DNA of 64,000 nt from an uncultured Bryobacterales bacterium (GTDB lineage Bacteria; Acidobacteriota; Terriglobia; Bryobacterales; UBA6623), in assembly GCA_958295955.1 (NCBI GenBank), contig OY282420.1:2246435-2310434 (forward strand). The letters are read 5' to 3'. The notes beneath the pieces were generated by a model. It ran no database searches, was not told where the DNA came from, and saw only the letters and a program-made list of their open reading frames with translations. Made by a program: the position numbers and the translations under genes. Positions 2,312-28,206 of the stretch are shown one piece after another. Positions within the stretch are counted from its first letter, which is position 1, and every line of letters starts with the position of its first letter.

Positions 2312-3757
2312 TCAGTCCGGCCGGTCGATCGCGCGGCGATCCGCCTCGACCGCTTCGAACCAGTTTTCAAGGTCCCTGAGCATCCGGCGCGCGCGGGCGG
2401 GGTGTTCCGCCGCGAGGTCGTTCGCTTCCCCGGGGTCCGCGGCCAAATTGTAGAGTTGCGGCGGTTCGGGCTCTTGCGGCTTCAGACGCGGCACGGGCAG
2501 GATGCGGTCGATGCCCGCCGGGTTCTCCTTGTGCTTGAGATCCGCTTCGACAAAGGCCGCCGTGCGGGCAATGTCTTCGTCGGATGCGCACAGATCGTCG
2601 CTGAAAAAGCGCGTGCCGCGAATCAGCGGCCGCACCAGTTTCCAGTCGCCGTCGCGCGCCGCCGCGTTCGTGCCGACATTCGGAAAGTAAAAATTCCATT
2701 GCCAGAACCGCCGCGGCTCGACTTCGAAAGGCTCGCCGCGCAGCAACGGCGAAAGATCGTGACCGTCCACCGCCGGCCCGGGCGGGCGCTCGCAGCCGCA
2801 CAGCGCCGGCAGAGTCGGCATCCAGTCGGTAAAATGCGTCAACGCGTCGCAAAACCGATGCGAGGCGATCCCGCCCGGCCAACGCGCGACCATCGGCACG
2901 CGGATGCCTCCTTCGTTGACCCAGCCTTTACTGCCCCGCATCCCTGCGTTGAAACGCTCGTTGAACGCCTCCTCGCCCGCTTCGAGCATGTAGGGAGGAT
3001 TGAAAAACGCCGGCCCGTTGTCGCTGGTGAAAGCAACGATCGTGTTTTCGGTCAAGCCCTCGCGGTCGAGCTTTTCGAGGATGCGGCCGACGCCTTCGTC
3101 CATGCGCTCGATCATGGCGTAGGTCGTCGCCACGATGCGGTTGAAGCCTTGCGAGCGGTAATGCGCGACGCGGTCCGCCGGCCCCTGAAACGGCGAATGC
3201 GGAGCGCTGTAAGGCAGGTAAAGGAAGAACGGGGCGTTGCGCTTGCGGTGGATGAAATCGACCGCTTCGGCGGTCAGCAGATCGGTGAGATACGTTCCGT
3301 CGGAAGGCGCGAGCGCGTCGTTGCGCCGCAGGTAATAGCGGTAGTAATCGGTCCAACCGCCGCAAAAACCCGTGAACTCGTCGAAGCCGCGCGCATTGGG
3401 CTCGTAGCGCCGGTCGAACGTTCCGTTGTGCCACTTGCCGACCAGTCCGGTAGCGTAACCGGCTGCGCGGAAGGCGTCGGCGATGGTCACCTCGCGCAGG
3501 GCGATGCGGTCGAGCCCGTGGATTTCATGCTGGGTAATCGCGCCGGTGCGGTGCGGATACCGCCCCGTAAGCAGCGCGGCCCGCGCCGGCGCGCAGATCG
3601 GCGACGCCGAGTAGTGCTGCCGAAAGCACGTTCCCTCGGCAACAAGCCGATCGAGATGGGGCGTTTTCACCAAGCCCTCGTTGAAAACGCCGAAATCGCC
3701 GTAGCCCATATCGTCGGCGAGAATCAGGATGACGTTGGGACGCGCGCGTGCGGGCAT
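2312..3757 (-). CDS. sulfatase (arylsulfatase family, formylglycine type)
   Basis: 481 residues. The N-terminus reads NVILILADDMGYGD, the metal-binding Asp pair of sulfatases. The formylglycine signature C-A-P-A-R is at residues 55-59, followed by AALLTGR, so Cys55 should be oxidised to formylglycine by a maturation enzyme not encoded here. Later motifs include GKWHNG and a FTSDNGP metal-site segment. No signal peptide precedes the catalytic domain at this start, unlike the other three sulfatases of the window, so it may be cytoplasmic or its start may lie upstream. Substrate not determinable; a sulfated sugar is likely. Divergent from rsmI across 109 bases. Confidence 0.93.
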   Translation of the reverse strand: MPARARPNVILILADDMGYGDFGVFNEGLVKTPHLDRLVAEGTCFRQHYSASPICAPARAALLTGRYPHRTGAITQHEIHGLDRIALREVTIADAFRAAGYATGLVGKWHNGTFDRRYEPNARGFDEFTGFCGGWTDYYRYYLRRNDALAPSDGTYLTDLLTAEAVDFIHRKRNAPFFLYLPYSAPHSPFQGPADRVAHYRSQGFNRIVATTYAMIERMDEGVGRILEKLDREGLTENTIVAFTSDNGPAFFNPPYMLEAGEEAFNERFNAGMRGSKGWVNEGGIRVPMVARWPGGIASHRFCDALTHFTDWMPTLPALCGCERPPGPAVDGHDLSPLLRGEPFEVEPRRFWQWNFYFPNVGTNAAARDGDWKLVRPLIRGTRFFSDDLCASDEDIARTAAFVEADLKHKENPAGIDRILPVPRLKPQEPEPPQLYNLAADPGEANDLAAEHPARARRMLRDLENWFEAVEADRRAIDRPD

Positions 3758-3866
3758 GAGCTTGTTTTCCGGCGCCGGCGGAGGCGTCTCCCCAGTGTAC
3801 GGAATCCGGCGAAACCCGCGCCCGGGGAACCGGCCGGCGTCCGTGCCATAGTGTGAAGCAGCACCT

Positions 3867-4700
3867 ATGGCGGGCGTGATTTATCTGGTCGCCACTCCCA
3901 TCGGCAACCTGGAAGACATCACCCTGCGCGCGCTGCGCACGCTGCGCGAAGTCGATCTCGTCGCCTGCGAAGACACTCGCCGCACCGGCCGCTTGCTGCG
4001 TCATTTCGAGATCGACAAGCCGCTGCTCGGCTACCGCGATCACAACGAGGCGGCGCGCGCCGCGGAGTTGATCCGGCGGGCGCAAGGCGGGGAGTCGATC
4101 GCGGTCGTCTGCGACGCCGGCACGCCGGGAATCTCCGACCCCGGTTTTCGCGTGGCGCGGACGGCGGTCGAGGCCGGCGTCCGGGTCGCGCCCATCCCCG
4201 GCGCGAGCGCCGCCTTGGCCGCGCTGACGGCTTCGGGCTTGCCGACTGACCGTTTTCGCTTCGAGGGTTTCCTGCCGTCGCGCAAGGCGAAACGCCGCGC
4301 CGCCCTGGAAGCGCTCCGCGCGGAGACGGCTACCGTCGTTCTCTACGAAGCCCCGCACAGAATCGTCGATGCTCTGCGGGATATCGCTGCGGTTCTCGGC
4401 GAGCGGACGCTCGTGCTGGCCCGCGAGTTGACCAAGCTGCACGAGGAATATCTGCGGGGAACGGCAGAGGAGCTCGCCGCCGAATGCGCAGGGCGCCCCG
4501 CGGTGAAAGGCGAGATCGTGCTGCTCATCGGCGGCGCCGAGGCCGCCGACGCGGACGGCCGCGCCCCCTTGGGCGCGCGAGTCGACGAACTGATCGGCGA
4601 AGGCGTTGACAGGATGGACGCCATCAAGCGCGCGGCCCGGGAACATGGCCTGAGCAAGCGCGACGCCTACCGGATTCTGGAGTCCCGGCGCGGCGGCTGA
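3867..4700 (+). CDS. rsmI: 16S rRNA (cytidine-1402 2'-O)-methyltransferase RsmI
   Basis: 277 residues, typical for the family. It starts with IYLVATPIGNLEDIT and carries the tetrapyrrole-methylase-type S-adenosylmethionine site VCDAGTPGISDPG (about 86-98) and the segment PIPGASAALAAL. RsmI methylates the ribose of C1402 in the decoding centre. The C-terminal region (about 235-277) is a helical extension. It starts about 109 bases from the divergent sulfatase and is followed 40 bases later by the DUF1080 gene on the same strand. Confidence 0.96.
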   Translation: MAGVIYLVATPIGNLEDITLRALRTLREVDLVACEDTRRTGRLLRHFEIDKPLLGYRDHNEAARAAELIRRAQGGESIAVVCDAGTPGISDPGFRVARTAVEAGVRVAPIPGASAALAALTASGLPTDRFRFEGFLPSRKAKRRAALEALRAETATVVLYEAPHRIVDALRDIAAVLGERTLVLARELTKLHEEYLRGTAEELAAECAGRPAVKGEIVLLIGGAEAADADGRAPLGARVDELIGEGVDRMDAIKRAAREHGLSKRDAYRILESRRGG

Positions 4701-6686: not shown

Positions 6687-9600
6687 TCATAGCGGACGGC
6701 TGCGGGCGACCGATCTTGCCCGGCTCGGGCCGTTTCGCGGCGCCGGCCCGCCCCTGCGGAATTCAAGTCCGCGCCGCTCCAGGCATCCTTTGGCAACCAG
6801 TTTCTCGACATTCTCCTCGACGCGCTTTCTCAAGTCGGCGCTTGTCGATTTGTAGCCGAACGCCCGCGCGGTCTCGACGGCGCAATCGGCGGCGTTCAGA
6901 GCGATGTTCTTCTCAACGGCCTCCAGGACGGCTGACTGAATCTCGCTCGGCGGGAGCATGTCCACTTTGCGCAGCGACGGCGACGCCGCATCGCTGCGAT
7001 CCCGCGCCGTTACGCCTTGCGAACCGTTGCAACATTCCAGGAACCGCCCGGACGAGTCGTCGGACCAACGGATGAGCTTGCGCCACACGGCTCTCTCCGC
7101 GGCCTGCCGCACGAGAGATTGAATGCGCTGCCCCGCCCGATTGTATCCCCAAAGGCGGCTCAGCCTGCGTCCGACCTCCTCGACATGGACCGGCGCCTCC
7201 GTCTCCACGATCTTGGTGACATACCGTTCCAGCCGCTCCAGCGGCATTTCGTGCAGTTTCATGAGCATACTCTCCGGAATCTCGAAAACAGCTTCCGCGT
7301 AGCGGCGGCGCTTGGGGTCGCGGTTCGGTGCGGTGGCGGCGCGCTCCACCACGGTCTCCGCGCGGGCCGTGGAGCGCGCGGAACCGGTTCCCGGCGCTTG
7401 GCCGGAACGGGCCCGCTCGATCGCCTCGAGCAGCTTCTGCATCTCGGCATCGCGCCGATAAAACCAGTCGGTGCTCCAGATCCGATGGATTTTCCAACCC
7501 TTCTGCTCGAGCACGATCTGCCGCAGCCGGTCCCTTTCGCGCGCCCAACTCGAAGAGTGGTAGCGGGCGCCGTCGCACTCGATCGCGAGCAGGAATCGGC
7601 CGGCGCAGTCCGGGTCGTACACGGCGAGATCAATGCGAAAGCCGGAAGACCCGACTTGCGCGGCGACGCGGTAGCCATGGCTTTGCAGTGCGCGGGCAAC
7701 GGCTTCTTCGAACGGGCTGTCCATCTCCGCCCCGGGCAGGAGAGGGATATCGAGTTCCCCGGTCTCGGCGAATTTTAAAAAGCGTTTGAGCACTCTGGGG
7801 CCGGCGTGCTTGGTCGCGTCGAGCCGGATGTCGTCGTGGCCGATCGTGGAGAAGACCCGGCACCGCGTCTTGGCGCGGGTGAACAGCACGTTCAAGCGGC
7901 GTTCCCCGCCTTCGCTGGAGACGGGGCCGAAGCTCTGCGACATGTAGCCGTTCGCGTCTTTGCCGTAGCCGACCGAAATGAAGATCACGTCCCGCTCGTC
8001 GCCCTGCACGTTCTCGAGATTTTTGACGAAGAAGGGATTGCTCTTGCTTTCCTTACAAAAGGCGTCGAGCTCGGGAAACTCGGAGCGCATGAACTCCAAC
8101 TTGTCGCGGATGGTGTCCCGCTGCGCGACGGAAAGCGTCACCACGCCGAGGGTTTCGTGCGGATGCTCGCGGGCGTGGGCGAGCACCTGCCAGGCAACCG
8201 CCGCGGCCTCCTGGGGGTTGTTCCGCTTCCGCCCGCGGTCGTACGTTCCCTCGACCTTGACCAACGTCAGCCCCGAGCTGCCGCCCGCCCCGTCGGGACT
8301 CGGCGGACATATGAGGCTGTTGTCGTAGAACTCGTGATTGGACACCTGAATCAGCGACGGATGCTTGGAGCGGTAGTGCCAGCGCAGCATGCCGCCCGCC
8401 ATGGACCGCGCCTCGCAGAGCGAAAGGATGCTCTCCATGTCTCCTACTTGCGCAGCCTGAATGTCCGCCGCCTCGTCGTGCTCGGCCTCGGCATCGTTGC
8501 CGGCGACCTGTCGATCGAAAAAAGAGGTGGGCGGCAACTGCTTCTGATCGCCGACGACAACAACCTGGCGGGCGCGCACAACTGCTCCGAGTCCGTCCGC
8601 GGGGCGGACCTGGCTGGCCTCGTCGATCAGTGCAAGATCGAACGTCAGGCCGCCGGGCCGCAGAAACTGCGCGACCGAGAGCGGACTCATCAAAAAGACC
8701 GGCTTGACAGCAGCTACGGCCTCTCCCGCCTTGTCGAGGAGTCTGCGCAACGGCATGTGTCTGGCTTTCTTGTTCGCTTCGCCGCGTACAATACCGATTT
8801 GCCCCGCTGAGCCGGCCGGCAGCGAGCGGAAATGCCGCAGCGCGATCTCCTGGGAAGCCAACCTCTGGAGCGCGCGGTCTAGCCGCTTGAATTCCTCCAC
8901 CTTGGCGCTGCGCTCTTCGCCGTCCACGTCCTCCAGTTCCGGCTCTTCCCGGCGCATGCGGTCCCAAACGGCCAGCGCGCGGACGAAGCGGAGGGTATTC
9001 TGCGCATGGCCCGCATCCAGGCGGCCGTCCGCCAATCGGCGGCGCAACTCTTCCAGACCGAGCGCCGAGGCGCGGCGCGCCGCCGCGCTCAACCTGTGCC
9101 AGCCGTCCATCGACTCGGTGCTCGATTCCCAGGACTCCAGGCGCTCGTGGAGGTCGGCCCAGGCAACGGATTCTACGCTGTCAGCGTTGAAGGCGGTTGC
9201 GCAGTCGAGCTTCAGCATGCCCGCAACCGCTTGCCAAGCGCCGCTCCACTCGACATGCGCGCTGCGCAACTCTCGCGCCATGCCCGCTAGGTCGGCGCCG
9301 GCGGGAATGCCGTCAACCTGCTGCTTCACGGAATGCCCGGAACCCAGCATGCGGGCTTGCGCTGCAACCCAGCGCAGCGCCGGGAGCAACGCTTTCGTGT
9401 CGGTGTCTGCGCCGCGCCAAAGCCGCCCGAGAGCGCTGCGACCGAAGGACTCGTCCTTGTCGAGTGCGCGGCTCATCCTGCGGAACTCGAGCAATCGATC
9501 GAGCACCGCCAGGCGCTCCTGCCATCCCTTGGGCAGCGCCGCGCGATGCACGGAGCGCAACCGCCCGACTGCGCTGCGGTAGCGGCCATTGAACCAGCGG

Positions 9601-15804: not shown

Positions 15805-16890
15805 TCAGGTCGCGCCTGCCGCTTCGAGCAGCGCTATCGTTTCCGTATAGTTCCTGGATTGCGCGACCGTCAGGGGCGTTGAGCCTGTGCGTTTGGTTCG
15901 TATATTGGGATCGGCGCCGGCCGCAAGCAGGGCGCGGACAATTTCCGCGTGGCCGTTGCACGCCGCAGCGTACAGAGGCGTCGCGCCTGCGCGTGCGGTT
16001 CGCGTGTTGACATCGGCGCCGGCCTTGAGTAGAGCGCGGACAATTTCCGCGTGGCCGCGGAACGCCGCAGTGTACAGAGGCGTCGAGTTTGTGCGTGCGG
16101 TTCTCGCGTTGATATCCGCGTTGGACTGGAGCAGATCGCGGACCATTTCCGCGTGGCCGCCGCGCGCTGCATGGTACAGGGGCGTATAGCCTCCTTGTTC
16201 GGTTCGCACATTGGGATCGGCGCCGGCCTCAAGCAAAACACGAACAACCTTCGCGTGGCCGCGGAACGCCGCATAGTACAAAGACGTATAGCCCCCCGGT
16301 GCGGTTCGCTCGTTGACATTGGAAACCTCGGCCAAAATACGGGTCAAGTGCGCGTTTCCCCACCTTGCAGCACGGTGCAGCGGCCGCCGGCGGGCAAACT
16401 CGATCGGCGCATACGCCAAGATCAGATTCGAGAAACACAGACCTATCAGTAAAGCCCGGCCCGCATCCATAGTCCCAAGCCGCTTACGCCAAAAACGCCG
16501 CAATCGGTCAGCCGGCCGAGAGGGCTCCAAACGCGGCCCCGGCGCGATTGCAAAGCCCCCGGCATCCGCTCCGTCCCAAACCGGACCGGCGGGAGTCGGC
16601 GCCTTTTTTCTTTTCCAGTCACGCCACTTTGCCGTAAAGCTCTCTGCTATGAAAGCCACAGCCGCCAACCACGCCACCGAAGCCGTCAGTTGCAACGCAA
16701 GGACGTGCAGGCCGTACCAGTTTTCCCCGAGATCGTCGATGCCGAACAGCGCAGCCCAAACAACCGTCAAGCCGATCAGGCCCATCAGGTAAAGGCCAAG
16801 CGCAAAGCGCATGAGCTTGCGCAGCCAGGAAGCCCCCAAAGCTCGTGATCGAAGCTCCGACCGCGACCAAACCCAACGCTTCTTCCGCAT
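15805..16890 (-). CDS. membrane-anchored ankyrin-repeat protein
   Basis: 361 residues. Two N-terminal hydrophobic segments (about 26-48 and 64-84), a charged linker, a third hydrophobic segment (about 143-162), then six ankyrin repeats (about 167-361). The repeats have a 34-residue period with the core TPLYxAAxxGHAEIVRALL-x-AGAD. The coding DNA of repeats 2-5 is so alike that it forms near-identical direct repeats of about 102 bases. Ankyrin arrays bind other proteins; which side of the membrane they face is not evident. The partner is unknown. Divergent from the enoyl-CoA hydratase gene. Confidence 0.85.
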   Translation of the reverse strand: MRKKRWVWSRSELRSRALGASWLRKLMRFALGLYLMGLIGLTVVWAALFGIDDLGENWYGLHVLALQLTASVAWLAAVAFIAESFTAKWRDWKRKKAPTPAGPVWDGADAGGFAIAPGPRLEPSRPADRLRRFWRKRLGTMDAGRALLIGLCFSNLILAYAPIEFARRRPLHRAARWGNAHLTRILAEVSNVNERTAPGGYTSLYYAAFRGHAKVVRVLLEAGADPNVRTEQGGYTPLYHAARGGHAEMVRDLLQSNADINARTARTNSTPLYTAAFRGHAEIVRALLKAGADVNTRTARAGATPLYAAACNGHAEIVRALLAAGADPNIRTKRTGSTPLTVAQSRNYTETIALLEAAGAT

Positions 16891-23628: not shown

Positions 23629-24288
23629 TCAACGGCTGCGCAAGGCGTCGATCTTCGGCGCCCATTGCTCGAGCGCTTCCGCGAGTCGGGCGGGCGCCGC
23701 GAGGCGATGCACGGTCATCCCCGCGGCGGCGGCCGAAGCGACTCCGGTCGCGGAGTCCTCGAACACGAGGCAGTCGCCGGCATGCTCGATGCCCGCATGC
23801 TCGCGGAGCTTTTCGAGGGCAAGAAGATAGGGCATGGGGTCGGGCTTGAGTCGGGCGACGTGGTCGCCGCAGATCACGAATTGCAGCGGGTCGGCGATGC
23901 CGTATCGTTCGAGCGTCGGCACGACGTCCGCAACCGCGCTGGACGACACGACGCCCAGAGGCGCTTGCGGCGCCGCCGCGCGGATCCACTCCACCACCCG
24001 CTCGTCGACGGTCAGCTCGACCCGGCTGCGGCGGCGGTAGCACTGCTGCTTGCGCAGGCATCCGGCGGTTATCGCCTCGTCGGTGGGCTCGCGTCCGGCC
24101 TTTTCGAGAAGGAATCTGCAGGCGTTGCGGTCGCTGATGCCGACGAAGCGCCGTGCGTACTCCTCCCAGCCGACCGCCGCGCCCCAATCTGCGGCAGCTT
24201 CGAGCCAGGTCTCGTGATGGAGATACTCGCTGTCGGACAACGTGCCGTCGAAGTCGAACAGAACGGCGCGAATGATTTCCGCGGCCAT
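23629..24288 (-). CDS. HAD-superfamily phosphatase (beta-phosphoglucomutase-like)
   Basis: 219 residues. Motif I is DFDGTLSDSE near residue 11, with the nucleophile Asp and acid/base Asp. Motif II is the VVSSS segment, motif III the KPDP lysine, and motif IV FEDSATGV. The cap insert after motif I places it with subclass IA enzymes such as beta-phosphoglucomutase and phosphoglycolate phosphatase. The substrate cannot be told. Its start faces the divergent octanucleotide-repeat locus. Confidence 0.9.
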   Translation of the reverse strand: MAAEIIRAVLFDFDGTLSDSEYLHHETWLEAAADWGAAVGWEEYARRFVGISDRNACRFLLEKAGREPTDEAITAGCLRKQQCYRRRSRVELTVDERVVEWIRAAAPQAPLGVVSSSAVADVVPTLERYGIADPLQFVICGDHVARLKPDPMPYLLALEKLREHAGIEHAGDCLVFEDSATGVASAAAAGMTVHRLAAPARLAEALEQWAPKIDALRSR

Positions 24289-24406: not shown

Positions 24407-24436
24407 TTGACAAGGCGGCGGCGGATGGGATATATT
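24407..24436 (+). promoter_or_regulatory. sigma-70-type promoter P1 of the NHL locus
   Basis: A perfect -35 box TTGACA (24407-24412), an 18-base spacer, and -10 box TATATT (24431-24436). Expected transcription start is about 24443, practically at the ATG at 24445, so the transcript would be leaderless. It is one of the few near-consensus promoters in this very GC-rich window. Confidence 0.65.
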
Positions 24437-24444
24437 CGTTTTCT

Positions 24445-24819
24445 ATGAGCGGCACGCAGCAGAACGATTCCCTTTCGATGCAAAAAGATTGGCGCGAGCC
24501 CTTGACGCGGTTCTTGACCAATCCTTATAATAAAGAAAGGTCAATCCGTCAATCCGTCAATCCGTCAATCCGTCAATCCGTCAATCCGTCAATCCGTCAA
24601 TCCGTCAATCCGTCAATCCGTCAATCCGTCAATCCGTCAATCCGTCAATCCGTCAATCCGTCAATCCGTCAATCCGTCAATCCGTCAATCCGTCAATCCG
24701 TCAATCCGTCAATCCGTCAATCCGTCAATCCGTCAATCCGTCAATCCGTCAATCCGTCAATCCGTCAATCCGTCAATCCGTCAATCCGTCAATCCGTCAA
24801 TCCGTCAATCCGTCAATAA
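24445..24819 (+). CDS. upstream reading frame running into the octanucleotide array
   Basis: ATG at 24445, about 32 non-repetitive codons (MSGTQQND...), then the array read as the octapeptide SIRQSVNP about 11 times, and a TAA stop at 24817-24819 directly after the array. A second in-frame ATG is at 24478. No Shine-Dalgarno precedes 24445; promoter P1 ends 8 bases before it, so start could be leaderless. On its own it resembles no protein I know. I interpret it as the 5' part of the downstream NHL gene, out of frame in this copy number. Whether it is translated is unproven. Confidence 0.4.
   Translation: MSGTQQNDSLSMQKDWREPLTRFLTNPYNKERSIRQSVNPSIRQSVNPSIRQSVNPSIRQSVNPSIRQSVNPSIRQSVNPSIRQSVNPSIRQSVNPSIRQSVNPSIRQSVNPSIRQSVNPSIRQ
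24502..24531 (+). promoter_or_regulatory. sigma-70-type promoter P2 abutting the octanucleotide array
   Basis: TTGACG (24502-24507), 18-base spacer, and perfect TATAAT (24526-24531). Predicted start is near 24538-24540, exactly where the repeat array begins, so a P2 transcript would carry the whole array as its 5' leader. Confidence 0.6.
24541..24817 (+). repeat. octanucleotide tandem repeat, 34 copies of TCAATCCG
   Basis: 34 perfect units (24541-24812) plus a partial unit TCAAT. Because 8 is not a multiple of 3, all three plus-strand frames read the same octapeptide SIRQSVNP without stops. The minus strand meets a TGA every 24 bases. Directly after the array, frame 1 meets TAA (24817) and frame 2 meets TAG (24827), while the third frame runs on for 3.3 kb as the NHL protein. 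A purine-rich AAGAGGAG (24819-24826) follows. Perfect arrays of this size mutate by strand slippage. Confidence 0.97.
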
Positions 24820-27800
24820 AGAGGAGTAGCGCGCTCTGCGCGCTCTCCGTTTTCCGCTCTTTTGTCTCCCTTCCCGGACTCGGCTCTCTTCTCTTCTTCA
24901 AGTTCTCCGCTCTTGCCGCCCCGTTCAGGCGGTCTTGCTCTGCGCTGGTCCTCGCCGCGCTGTCGGCGGCGGTTGCCGGGGCGCAGCCTGCGGACGACTG
25001 GGTCATCGAGACGGTCGCGGGGGGCGGCAATTCCATCGGGGACGGCGGCGCGGCTACGGCGGCGCTACTGAGCGCCCCCTCCGGCGTGGCTGTGGACGGA
25101 GCGGGCAACCTGTACATCGCCGATTTTAACAACCACCGCATCCGCAAGGTGAACTCTGCGGGGGTGATCTCCACCGTGGCGGGAACCGGCACGGCGGGCT
25201 TCAGCGGAGACGGCGGCGCGGCCACTTCGGCGCAACTGCGCAACCCCCAAGACGTGGTGCTGGACGCAGCGGGCAACCTGTACATCGCCGATACGGGCGA
25301 CCACCGCATCCGCAAGGTGAACTCTGCGGGGGTGATCTCCACGGTGGCGGGTAGCGGGGCGCAAGGCTTCAGCGGGGACGGCGGCGCGGCTACGGCGGCG
25401 CAACTCAACCAGCCCAGGGGCGTGGCGCTGGACGGCGCGGGCAACCTGTACATCGCCGATTGGTTCAACCAGCGCATCCGCAAGGTGGACACTGATGGGG
25501 ATATCTCCACGGTGGCGGGAACCGGGACTGCCGGCTTCAGCGGGGACGGCGGCGCGGCCACTTCGGCGCAACTGGACAACCCCTATGGCGTGGCAGTGGA
25601 CGGCGCGGGCAACCTGTACATCGCCGACGATAACAACAACCGCATCCGCAAGGTGAACTCTGCGGGGAACATCTCCACGGTGGCGGGAACCGGGACTGCC
25701 GGCTTCAGCGGAGACGGCGGCGCGGCCACTTCGGCGCAACTGGACAACCCCTATGTCGTGGCGCTGGACGGCGCGGGCAACCTGTACATCGCCGATGGTG
25801 GCAACCACCGCATCCGCAAGGTGAACTCTGCGGGGGTGATCTCCACGGTGGCGGGTAGCGGGGCGCAAGGCTTCAGCGGAGACGGCGGCGCGGCCACAGC
25901 GGCGCTACTGAACTTCCCCATCGACGTGGCGCCGGACGCTTTGGGCAACCTGTACATCGCCGAATGGGTCAACAACCGCATCCGCAAGGTGGACTCTGCG
26001 GGGGTAATCACCACGGTGGCGGGTAGAGAGCAACTGAACGCCCCCCGCAGCGTGGCGCCGGACGGAGCGGGCAACCTGTACATCGCCGACACGGGCAACA
26101 ACCGCATCCACAAGGTGGACTCTGCGGGGGTGATCTCCACGGTGGCGGGTAGCGGCACGGCGGGCTTCAGCGGGGATGGCGGCGCGGCTACGGCGGCGCA
26201 ACTCAACCAGCCCAGGGGCGTGGCGCCGGACGGAGCGGGCAACCTGTACATCGCCGATAGGGGCAACCAACGCATCCGCAAGGTGGACTCTGCGGGCGTG
26301 ATCTCCACAGTAGCGGGTAACGGCGCGGCGGGCTACAGCGGGGACAGCGGCGCGGCCACTGCGGCGCAACTGTGGGACCCCTATGGCGTGGCGTTGGACG
26401 GAGCGGGCAACCTGTACATCGCCGATAGATCCAACCACCGCATCCGCAAGGTGGACTCCTCGGGGGATATCTCCACGGTGGCGGGTAGCGGCACGCAAGG
26501 CTACAGCGGGGACGGCGGCGCGGCCACTGCGGCACTACTGAGCGGCCCCGCAGGCGTGGCGCTGGACGGAGCGGGCAACCTGTACATTGCCGATAATAAC
26601 AACCACCGCATCCGCAAGGTGAACTCTGCGGGGGTGATTTCCACGGTGGCGGGTAGCGGCACGGCGGGCTACAGCGGGGACGGCGGCGCGGCTATGGCGG
26701 CGCAACTGAACTTCCCCACCGGCGTGGCGCTGGACGGAGCGGGCAACCTGTACATCGCCGATGAGAACAACCGCCGCATCCGCAAGATAGAAACCGTACC
26801 GGGCTTTTCTGCCGGAATTCTTTCAACGGGGATGATCACCACGGTGGCGGGCGACGGGGCGCAAGGCTACGGCGGGGACGGCGGCGCGGCTGTTGCGGCG
26901 CAACTCAACCAGCCCTTTGGCGTGGCGCTGGACGGAGCGGGCAACCTGTACATCGCCGATACGGGCAACAACCGCATCCGCAAGGTGGGGCCGCCCCCGC
27001 CGCCGCCCGCGCGGCCCCGCGAGCCGGAACCGACGGTGGAGCCGGTGGGCGTTTTCGAGTTGTCGTTCACGCCGGCGGCGGAAGCCGACCCGTCGGAGCC
27101 GATGTCGCAGACGCTCATGCTGCGCGCCGAAGGCGGGGCGGCGGAGTTCGAGGTGCTGCCCAGCGCGCGCTGGATCGAGGTCTCGCGCTGGAGCGGGAGC
27201 GCATCGTGGAAGGGGAGCTTGGCCGCGGGCGAGACGATTACGCTGCGGGTTACGGTGAATCCTCTGGGGCTGCGTCCGGGAACGCACCGCGGCTATGTGT
27301 ATATCCGCTCCGGGGGGCGCGCGTCGCGGGTGCGCATCGTGTTGGAGGTGGCGCCGCCGACGGGTCCGGACGTGACCGAGAGCGGGGGCGTGCTCAACGC
27401 GGCGCGGATGAGCGCTTACGGCGAGGCGGGGCTGTTCGGGCCGCCGGCGCTGCCGTTGACGCCGGGATCGCTGGTCGTGGTGCAGGGCGTGAACTTCCTC
27501 GCGGGCGAACCGATTGGGGCCGCTGGTTTTCCGTTGCCGACGAGCCTGGAGGGAGTGCGCGTGCTGTTCGACGGTCTGGAGGCGCCGCTGTTTGCGGTAG
27601 GGCCGCAGCGCATCGAGGCGCAGTTGCCCTCGGCGTTGGGCGGGGAGTCTCTGGCAGCGGGCGGCCTGGCCGTGGCGGAGGTGGTCGTGGAGGCGGGGGG
27701 CAAGAGCAGCTATCCGCGGCGCTTCTGGGTGGGGGCGTATGGGCCTGGGGTGTTCACGGCGTCGGGCGCGGGCAGCGGCCAGGCGATAGCCTTGTTCGCC

Positions 27801-28193
27801 GGTACGACGGCGTTGGCCGCCCCGAGCGGTTTCGGCGCCGGGAGCCGGCCGGCGCGGGCCGGGGAGGTGCTGGAGATTTACGCGACGGGGCTGGGGCCGG
27901 TGGATCCGCCGTTGGCCGACGGGATGAACTCGTGCTTGCCGGCGGGCATCTGTCTGGCGGACGGGTCGAACGTAGTGCTGCGGCATACGACGGAGCGCCC
28001 GCGGGTAAGCATCGGCGGCGTGGCGGTCGCTGCGGACGGCGTGCTGTTTTCGGGTTCGGCGCCGACGCTGGTGGCGGTGGACATGGTGCTGGTCGAAGTT
28101 CCCGCAGGCATTGAGCCGTCCGCCGCGGCGGAGGTGCTCATCGCCATCGGCGGCAGAGCGAGTCAACCCGGCGTCACCGTCGCCGTGGAGTGA
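24813..28193 (+). CDS. secreted NHL-repeat protein with BACON-like and Solibacter-type C-terminal domains
   Basis: The frame is open from 24534 through the array to TGA at 28191-28193, but it contains no ATG, GTG or TTG before GTG 25086, which is already inside the first NHL unit; CTG at 24945 is the only earlier near-start. The coordinates here therefore mark the coding frame, not a proven start. After the array comes a hydrophobic export-like stretch (to AAVAGAQ near 24990), then 12 NHL units (core DGAGNLYIAD-x(4)-RIRKV) able to form two six-bladed propellers. A proline linker (about 26990), a BACON-like domain (27030-27355) and the TIGR03437-type C-terminal domain (27360-28193) follow. Likely secreted or cell-surface; ligand unknown. 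Confidence 0.85.
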   Translation, partial: SIKRSSALCALSVFRSFVSLPGLGSLLFFKFSALAAPFRRSCSALVLAALSAAVAGAQPADDWVIETVAGGGNSIGDGGAATAALLSAPSGVAVDGAGNLYIADFNNHRIRKVNSAGVISTVAGTGTAGFSGDGGAATSAQLRNPQDVVLDAAGNLYIADTGDHRIRKVNSAGVISTVAGSGAQGFSGDGGAATAAQLNQPRGVALDGAGNLYIADWFNQRIRKVDTDGDISTVAGTGTAGFSGDGGAATSAQLDNPYGVAVDGAGNLYIADDNNNRIRKVNSAGNISTVAGTGTAGFSGDGGAATSAQLDNPYVVALDGAGNLYIADGGNHRIRKVNSAGVISTVAGSGAQGFSGDGGAATAALLNFPIDVAPDALGNLYIAEWVNNRIRKVDSAGVITTVAGREQLNAPRSVAPDGAGNLYIADTGNNRIHKVDSAGVISTVAGSGTAGFSGDGGAATAAQLNQPRGVAPDGAGNLYIADRGNQRIRKVDSAGVISTVAGNGAAGYSGDSGAATAAQLWDPYGVALDGAGNLYIADRSNHRIRKVDSSGDISTVAGSGTQGYSGDGGAATAALLSGPAGVALDGAGNLYIADNNNHRIRKVNSAGVISTVAGSGTAGYSGDGGAAMAAQLNFPTGVALDGAGNLYIADENNRRIRKIETVPGFSAGILSTGMITTVAGDGAQGYGGDGGAAVAAQLNQPFGVALDGAGNLYIADTGNNRIRKVGPPPPPPARPREPEPTVEPVGVFELSFTPAAEADPSEPMSQTLMLRAEGGAAEFEVLPSARWIEVSRWSGSASWKGSLAAGETITLRVTVNPLGLRPGTHRGYVYIRSGGRASRVRIVLEVAPPTGPDVTESGGVLNAARMSAYGEAGLFGPPALPLTPGSLVVVQGVNFLAGEPIGAAGFPLPTSLEGVRVLFDGLEAPLFAVGPQRIEAQLPSALGGESLAAGGLAVAEVVVEAGGKSSYPRRFWVGAYGPGVFTASGAGSGQAIALFAGTTALAAPSGFGAGSRPARAGEVLEIYATGLGPVDPPLADGMNSCLPAGICLADGSNVVLRHTTERPRVSIGGVAVAADGVLFSGSAPTLVAVDMVLVEVPAGIEPSAAAEVLIAIGGRASQPGVTVAVE
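25008..26989 (+). repeat. DNA-level tandem repeat encoding 12 NHL units
   Basis: Units of about 165-168 bases, most differing at few positions, each including the block GGCAACCTGTACATCGCCGA. One unit (around 25990-26090) is about 45 bases shorter: its TVAG is followed directly by a divergent REQLNAPR, without the FSGDGGAAT segment. The eleventh unit carries an insertion (PGFSAGILSTG). Such sequence likeness permits unequal recombination within the gene. Confidence 0.9.
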
Positions 28194-28206
28194 CGGGCGC
28201 CGCGGG

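Follow-up and report, generated by a model that had tools for sequence, protein, structure and literature searches.

The window analysed here, a stretch of 64,000 nucleotides from an uncultured Bryobacterales bacterium of the phylum Acidobacteriota (contig OY282420.1, positions 2,246,435 to 2,310,434), carries a perfect array of the octanucleotide TCAATCCG between an ATG at position 24445 and the long reading frame of a predicted secreted NHL-repeat protein that has no start codon of its own ahead of its signal-peptide-like stretch. On balance, we read this locus from its sequence as a translational contingency (phase-variable) locus, at which changes in repeat number would decide whether the protein is made, and, as the best reading of the comparisons below, as one of a small family of such loci in the same genome.

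As assembled, the array consists of 34 perfect TCAATCCG units (24541-24812) followed by a partial unit, TCAAT, that extends to 24817; Tandem Repeats Finder (TRF) gives 34.8 copies with 100% matches. With 34 copies the frame from ATG 24445 passes through the array and ends at TAA 24817-24819, and the 35-copy frame ends at TAG 24827-24829, both being OFF states. ATG 24445 reaches the NHL frame only with a copy number divisible by three: in an in-silico series from 31 to 37 copies, only 33 (1246 amino acids) and 36 (1254 amino acids) were ON, and 31, 32, 34, 35 and 37 copies gave truncated products of 116-132 amino acids. Whichever forward frame is read, the unit translates to the cyclic octapeptide IRQSVNPS. 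The NHL frame continues open to 28193, with GTG 25086 as its earliest ATG, GTG or TTG, past the signal-peptide-like stretch. An earlier reading of this DNA (the original prediction) had described the 34 copies, both stops, ON states at 33 and 36 copies with about 1246 residues at 33, the same octapeptide in every frame and an NHL frame without a start before its first NHL unit, and all of these were recovered as described.

Two marks of a contingency locus are seen in the window: a perfect tandem array of short units with a unit length not divisible by three, and its placement after the start codon and ahead of the main part of the frame, where array length sets the frame. Perfect arrays with a period of 4-9 and at least 4 copies were found only twice in a sample of 464 kb (20 stretches of 20 kb at about 220 kb spacing, one of them shifted off the window, plus the window itself; some stretches included NHL genes by chance), namely in the window and at the paralogous locus L088, both at NHL gene 5' ends. 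By this survey, the array of the window is not a chance occurrence.

In the whole genome (95.5% complete, 4.58 Mb, with a main contig of 4.44 Mb), arrays of at least three TCAATCCG units occur at three places, with repeat numbers that differ between paralogues: 34 copies in the window, 50 at C1:369072-369471 and 5 at C1:2001022-2001061. Both further arrays occupy the identical position of NHL paralogues and have the flanks of the window array, ATGAGCGGC... on one side and TCAATAAAGAGRAGTAGCGCG... on the other; in all three cases the array separates the conserved ATG from an NHL frame that has no ATG or GTG from the array to the hydrophobic core. All three arrays are 100% matching (TRF), and their 140-nt leaders are identical at 139/140 positions between the 50-copy and 5-copy loci, at 122/140 between the window and the 50-copy locus and at 121/140 between the window and the 5-copy locus. 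Since the 50-copy and 5-copy loci have near-identical leaders but differ by 45 units, and the arrays match throughout, we infer that, compared with point mutation, changes in copy number are rapid and arise through slippage or exchange between arrays. The 5-copy gene (L022, array 4023-4062) is a mosaic, like the 50-copy locus upstream and like the window downstream (post-array identity to the window of 93.7%, versus 86.6%, array included, for the 50-copy locus), and the array may have served as the recombination joint.

The choice of start codon is informed by eight array-less paralogues, taken as matches with upstream DNA homologous to the window in front of NHL frames (short weak matches of 59 bits or less, at L064 and L066-L079, were left out of this count). 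In each of the eight, an ATG stands in frame with the signal peptide and NHL. In five of them (L080, two in L081, L085 and L086) it is the homologue of ATG 24445 itself, a short distance after the promoter-like stretch described below; in L084 it lies 27 nt beyond that homologue, and L082 and L083 have a proximal ATG, at the place where the array loci read AATAAAG. Because the array-less paralogues start in frame, five of them at its homologue, ATG 24445 is probably the inherited start, and its use as start codon in the original prediction gains support. The leaders of the two L081 paralogues differ by a +1 and a nearby compensating -1 that restores the frame, and L084, with its frame ON, bears an imperfect 2x7 repeat of 14 nt at the array position. 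Among 17 signal-bearing frames, only those of the window and the 5-copy locus are without any ATG, GTG or TTG before the hydrophobic core; L088 and L089 have only TTG or GTG there. The NHL gene of L089, which has TTG starts only, also contains a 14-base poly-C tract in its N-terminal part (1567-1580 in gene orientation, the reverse complement of the locus), another possible slippage site.

The NHL frame (24819..28193, + strand), start-less at 34 copies, encodes NHL/teneurin-NHL propeller repeats that score above the Pfam cutoff (PF01436, 237.1 bits, cutoff 20) and ends in a TIGR03437 Soli_cterm domain (27453..28187, + strand; 127.5 bits, cutoff 29.05), the architecture of the TIGR03437 (Soli_cterm) NHL-repeat proteins. 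A signal-peptide-like stretch, RRSCSALVLAALSAAVAGA (24927..24983, + strand), recognised by hydropathy and motif only, stands before QPADDW. Used as a query against its own genome, the NHL protein finds 102 matching stretches. Between the window and the 5-copy locus the whole frame has neither stop nor frameshift, with a synonymous rate (dS) of 0.103, a nonsynonymous rate (dN) of 0.050 and a dN/dS of 0.49; the roughly 204 changes over about 1,115 codons divide into 86.8 synonymous and 117.2 nonsynonymous, a synonymous excess with a binomial p = 1.3e-6 (87 of 204 rounded changes). By part, the same pair gives 0.57 for the propeller, 0.31 for the C-terminal part and 0.31 for the post-array N-terminus (5 synonymous, 4 nonsynonymous), for which the window versus the 50-copy locus gives 0.74 and the 5-copy versus the 50-copy locus 0.39. 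Judged by these ratios, purifying selection acts on the NHL frame, which has stayed intact and counts as a maintained gene of the kind that a contingency locus controls. The C-terminal 1.2 kb of the window gene (27008-28204) is 91-92% identical to L087 and L088 despite quite different leaders, which suggests that NHL genes have swapped domains or undergone gene conversion.

Several further elements surround the array. To its left, a HAD-family phosphatase gene (23629-24288, - strand) lies whole in the window, its first ~30 codons corresponding to 24199..24288. A promoter-like TTGACA-N18-TATATT (24407..24436, + strand; 11 of 12 matches) is placed 8 nt before the probable start codon ATG 24445..24447 (+ strand), which by position would be leaderless and is followed by a second in-frame ATG at 24478; each of the eight array-less paralogues has a stretch similar to this promoter-like site ahead of its ATG region, the first hexamer being altered in L083, L084 and L086. 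A second promoter-like site, TTGACG-N18-TATAAT (24502..24531, + strand), abuts the array and has both hexamers also in the 50-copy and 5-copy loci; two promoter-like sites were observed in the region against 0.3 in shuffles. The array proper (24541..24817, + strand) begins within the seed TAAAGAAAGGTCAATCC (24531..24547, + strand), one of six exact genome matches to TRAARAAAGGNCANNCC, and the two OFF stops on the + strand are directly followed by a GC hairpin, AGCGCGC-TCT-GCGCGCT (24828..24844, + strand), with a weak T-tail and a putative role only; terminator-like sites in the region number 3, with 1.1 expected from shuffles. Elsewhere in the window, TRF reports an imperfect tandem repeat of 102 bp with 4.4 copies (15871-16316).

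If the locus is a contingency locus, replication slippage or unequal exchange between paralogous arrays would change its copy number rapidly. At copy numbers divisible by three, a ribosome starting at ATG 24445 would translate the IRQSVNPS repeats and then the signal peptide and the NHL propeller; at other copy numbers it would stop at TAA or TAG just past the array, and the hairpin at 24828-24844 would then possibly add transcriptional polarity. The assembled genome would be OFF at the window locus and at its two TCAATCCG paralogues.

A number of observations weigh against this reading. As assembled, none of the three copy numbers (34, 50 and 5) puts the conserved ATG in the ON phase (an outcome with a chance of (2/3)^3 = 0.30 under random phase), the 50-copy and 5-copy loci, with their near-identical leaders, also share the same phase, and at the 50-copy locus a single in-frame TTG lies between array and hydrophobic core. 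Position 24199, inside the HAD phosphatase gene, is a common left border of the window, 50-copy and 5-copy loci and of the array-less L080, so that all four derive from a single duplicated stretch and do not count as independent events; since the other three loci resemble each other left of the junction, the parent copy is probably that of the window. In the pre-array segment, dN/dS is 1.35 between the window and the 5-copy locus (11 nonsynonymous, 2 synonymous) and 1.21 between the window and the 50-copy locus (10 nonsynonymous, 2 synonymous), values that indicate no constraint and speak against a long-lived coding role of this segment. The best hydrophobic 15-mer starts at residue 162 with 33 copies and at residue 213 with 51, versus residues 28-76 in the eight array-less paralogues; with its signal peptide near residue 160, the ON protein at 33 copies might export poorly, and short arrays may be the useful ones, a long N-extension possibly weakening export. 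Transcripts from the second promoter-like site would lack ATG 24445, and gene conversion from intact paralogues could hold dead frames open. Much of this is also what would be seen under neutral microsatellite expansion in redundant, decaying paralogues, in which slippage broke one NHL copy that was then duplicated, and recent duplication and gene conversion keep the frames intact. We regard such decay as a serious rival, possible though rather unlikely: three of three TCAATCCG loci are OFF, the 102 matching stretches make redundancy plausible, the pre-array ratios exceed 1, large arrays would push the signal peptide far inside, and the likeness of the C-terminal 1.2 kb to two paralogues with other leaders suggests conversion or recombination; but the dN/dS of the whole frame and of its C-terminal part, the absence of any stop in about 1,115 codons despite some 204 changes, the restriction of arrays to NHL 5' ends within the 464 kb and the frame-restoring compensation in L081 speak against it.

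Other explanations bear on how the frame is read. The NHL protein could be made in any phase from an unusual start, namely ATA 24530 or, at the 50-copy locus, the post-array TTG, or else by a frameshift within the array or by re-initiation after TAA/TAG. ATA 24530, just before the array, is in frame when the copy number equals 2 mod 3, and the 50-copy and 5-copy loci are both in this frame (IIKKGQSVNPS...); the matching place reads ATGAAGAAAGG in L090 and ATGAAAAAAGG in L088, the 50-copy locus has its in-frame TTG ahead of the hydrophobic core, and a Shine-Dalgarno-like AGGAG lies at 24822-24826 in the window. The 34-copy window locus, however, is outside the ATA frame, there is no post-array ATG, GTG or TTG until GTG 25086 and none in the NHL frame at normal spacing after the Shine-Dalgarno-like site, and ATA start codons are very inefficient, so that we consider this explanation improbable. 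Slightly less probable again is that the array tunes and does not switch, copy number altering the 5' leader or the N-terminal extension and through them transcript stability, attenuation at the 24828-24844 hairpin or export efficiency; a promoter-like site does adjoin the array and a terminator-like hairpin follows it, and in modelled ON states the cleavage motif ends anywhere from residue 100 (3 copies) to residue 228 (51 copies), but the 8-nt unit makes an effect on frame unavoidable if ATG 24445 is used, and the hairpin has a weak tail in a region where shuffles average 1.1 terminator-like sites. Finally, the copy numbers are estimates taken from the assembly, assembly is prone to error at perfect arrays of 272-400 bp, and the true number might be a fixed multiple of three in an ordinary gene with a coding repeat; this we hold to be very improbable, as errors would be needed at three separate loci, the 5-copy array (40 bp) is easily read and the 4.44 Mb main contig suggests long reads that span the arrays.

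Arrays of other units accompany further NHL genes. The heptamer TCAGTCG is repeated near the NHL gene 5' end in L087 and L088 (3 and 16 copies), as is the octamer CCAAACCG in L090 (16 copies), and in L094 29 copies of GCACACCG separate an NHL gene from an unrelated one. In L087 the first ATG is in the ON phase and the next two are OFF; in L088 all three ATGs are OFF, with in-frame TTG/GTG present; L090 is OFF from the array-side ATG, with a normal downstream ATG present. By their phases, these three appear to be less clear cases of frame control than the TCAATCCG loci. In L094 (C1:3654000-3666500), the GCACACCG x29 array lies inside an open frame from ATG 3632 (3632-4321) whose stop codon TGA overlaps the start ATG of the non-NHL gene that follows (MTNFQLDLTGFEF...), a possible translational coupling at 29 copies. 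In L092, a perfect 15-bp repeat, ATATGGAACAATCGA x3.9 (7702-7760), with a frame-neutral unit, is found shortly upstream of another NHL gene.

The arrays share a seed. Exact matches to TRAARAAAGGNCANNCC occur at six places in the 4.58 Mb, every one an array start (0 for the reversed pattern); five of the six precede NHL genes and three are the duplicated TCAATCCG loci. With up to one mismatch there are 11 matches versus 8 for the reversed control, so only the exact form is informative, and five one-mismatch matches, in DNA without arrays, were not counted. The pattern AAAGG+(NCANNCCG)x3 has five exact places, all arrays; its reversed form has 0 at zero mismatches and 15 at up to two mismatches (0 forward, 15 reverse). 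In codons, the seed reads [M/I/L]-K-K-G-[QH]-[ST]. A wider proposal, which we put forward tentatively and think doubtful, is a multi-locus 'phasome' for secreted NHL proteins in one bacterium, in which hepta- and octamer arrays born from one seed grammar (TRAARAAAGG-NCANNCC) would switch paralogues independently, re-expansion of a mutated unit after contraction would give each array its own repeat, and shared arrays would act as recombination joints.

The genus holds one genome, and within the order the anchored NCANNCCG pattern was present in 1 of 257 genomes, the bacterium's own, in a search that arrays of other units would escape. NHL-like matches to an N-terminal NHL query were obtained in 61 of 61 genomes searched (its own and 60 relatives). 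Unlike the window locus, the TIGR03437/NHL loci of 29 relatives had no array of period 5, 7, 8, 10 or 11 with at least 3 copies within about 1.5 kb either side of the match, a span that may miss the gene 5' end. Scanning genome contigs for AAAGG+(NCANNCCG)x3, with records near the window's genome possibly excluded, returned three ACAACCCG units in Paraburkholderia tagetis and three non-identical units in a Chromatiaceae metagenome-assembled genome, both rejected as being in unrelated context; one 3-copy TCAATCCG locus in the viral contig scan was rejected for its different flanks. Literature searches, judged by title or abstract opening, found none on simple sequence repeat (SSR) switching in Acidobacteriota, and none were found on secreted NHL-repeat proteins in Acidobacteria or on paralogous NHL proteins in Solibacter.

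Contingency loci are known mainly from host-adapted bacteria. In Haemophilus influenzae, SSR contingency loci are described with tetranucleotide arrays, with hepta-, octa- and nonanucleotide arrays upstream of hmw1A/hmw2A, where unit types differ between strains, and with a heptanucleotide array within the homologue of HI1369 (PMC2651432). Octanucleotide contingency repeats have thus been proposed already, and the tetra- to heptanucleotide range that the original prediction gave for contingency arrays was too narrow (PMC2651432). As at those loci, a length change in the short tandem array of the window would shift the frame or the leader of a protein that is secreted or at the surface; the H. 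influenzae loci differ in their documented between-strain variation, and the hmw arrays lie upstream of genes, whereas the window array lies inside the frame, in another phylum and on the NHL family.

If the contingency reading is true, hypermutable frame switches would act, in an Acidobacteriota, on a family of predicted secreted proteins with many paralogues. The common seed among arrays with different units bears on how such arrays are born. The switches would also offer a direct test of what NHL/Soli_cterm proteins do, for which bet-hedging against phage, predators or neighbours can be put forward as guesses.

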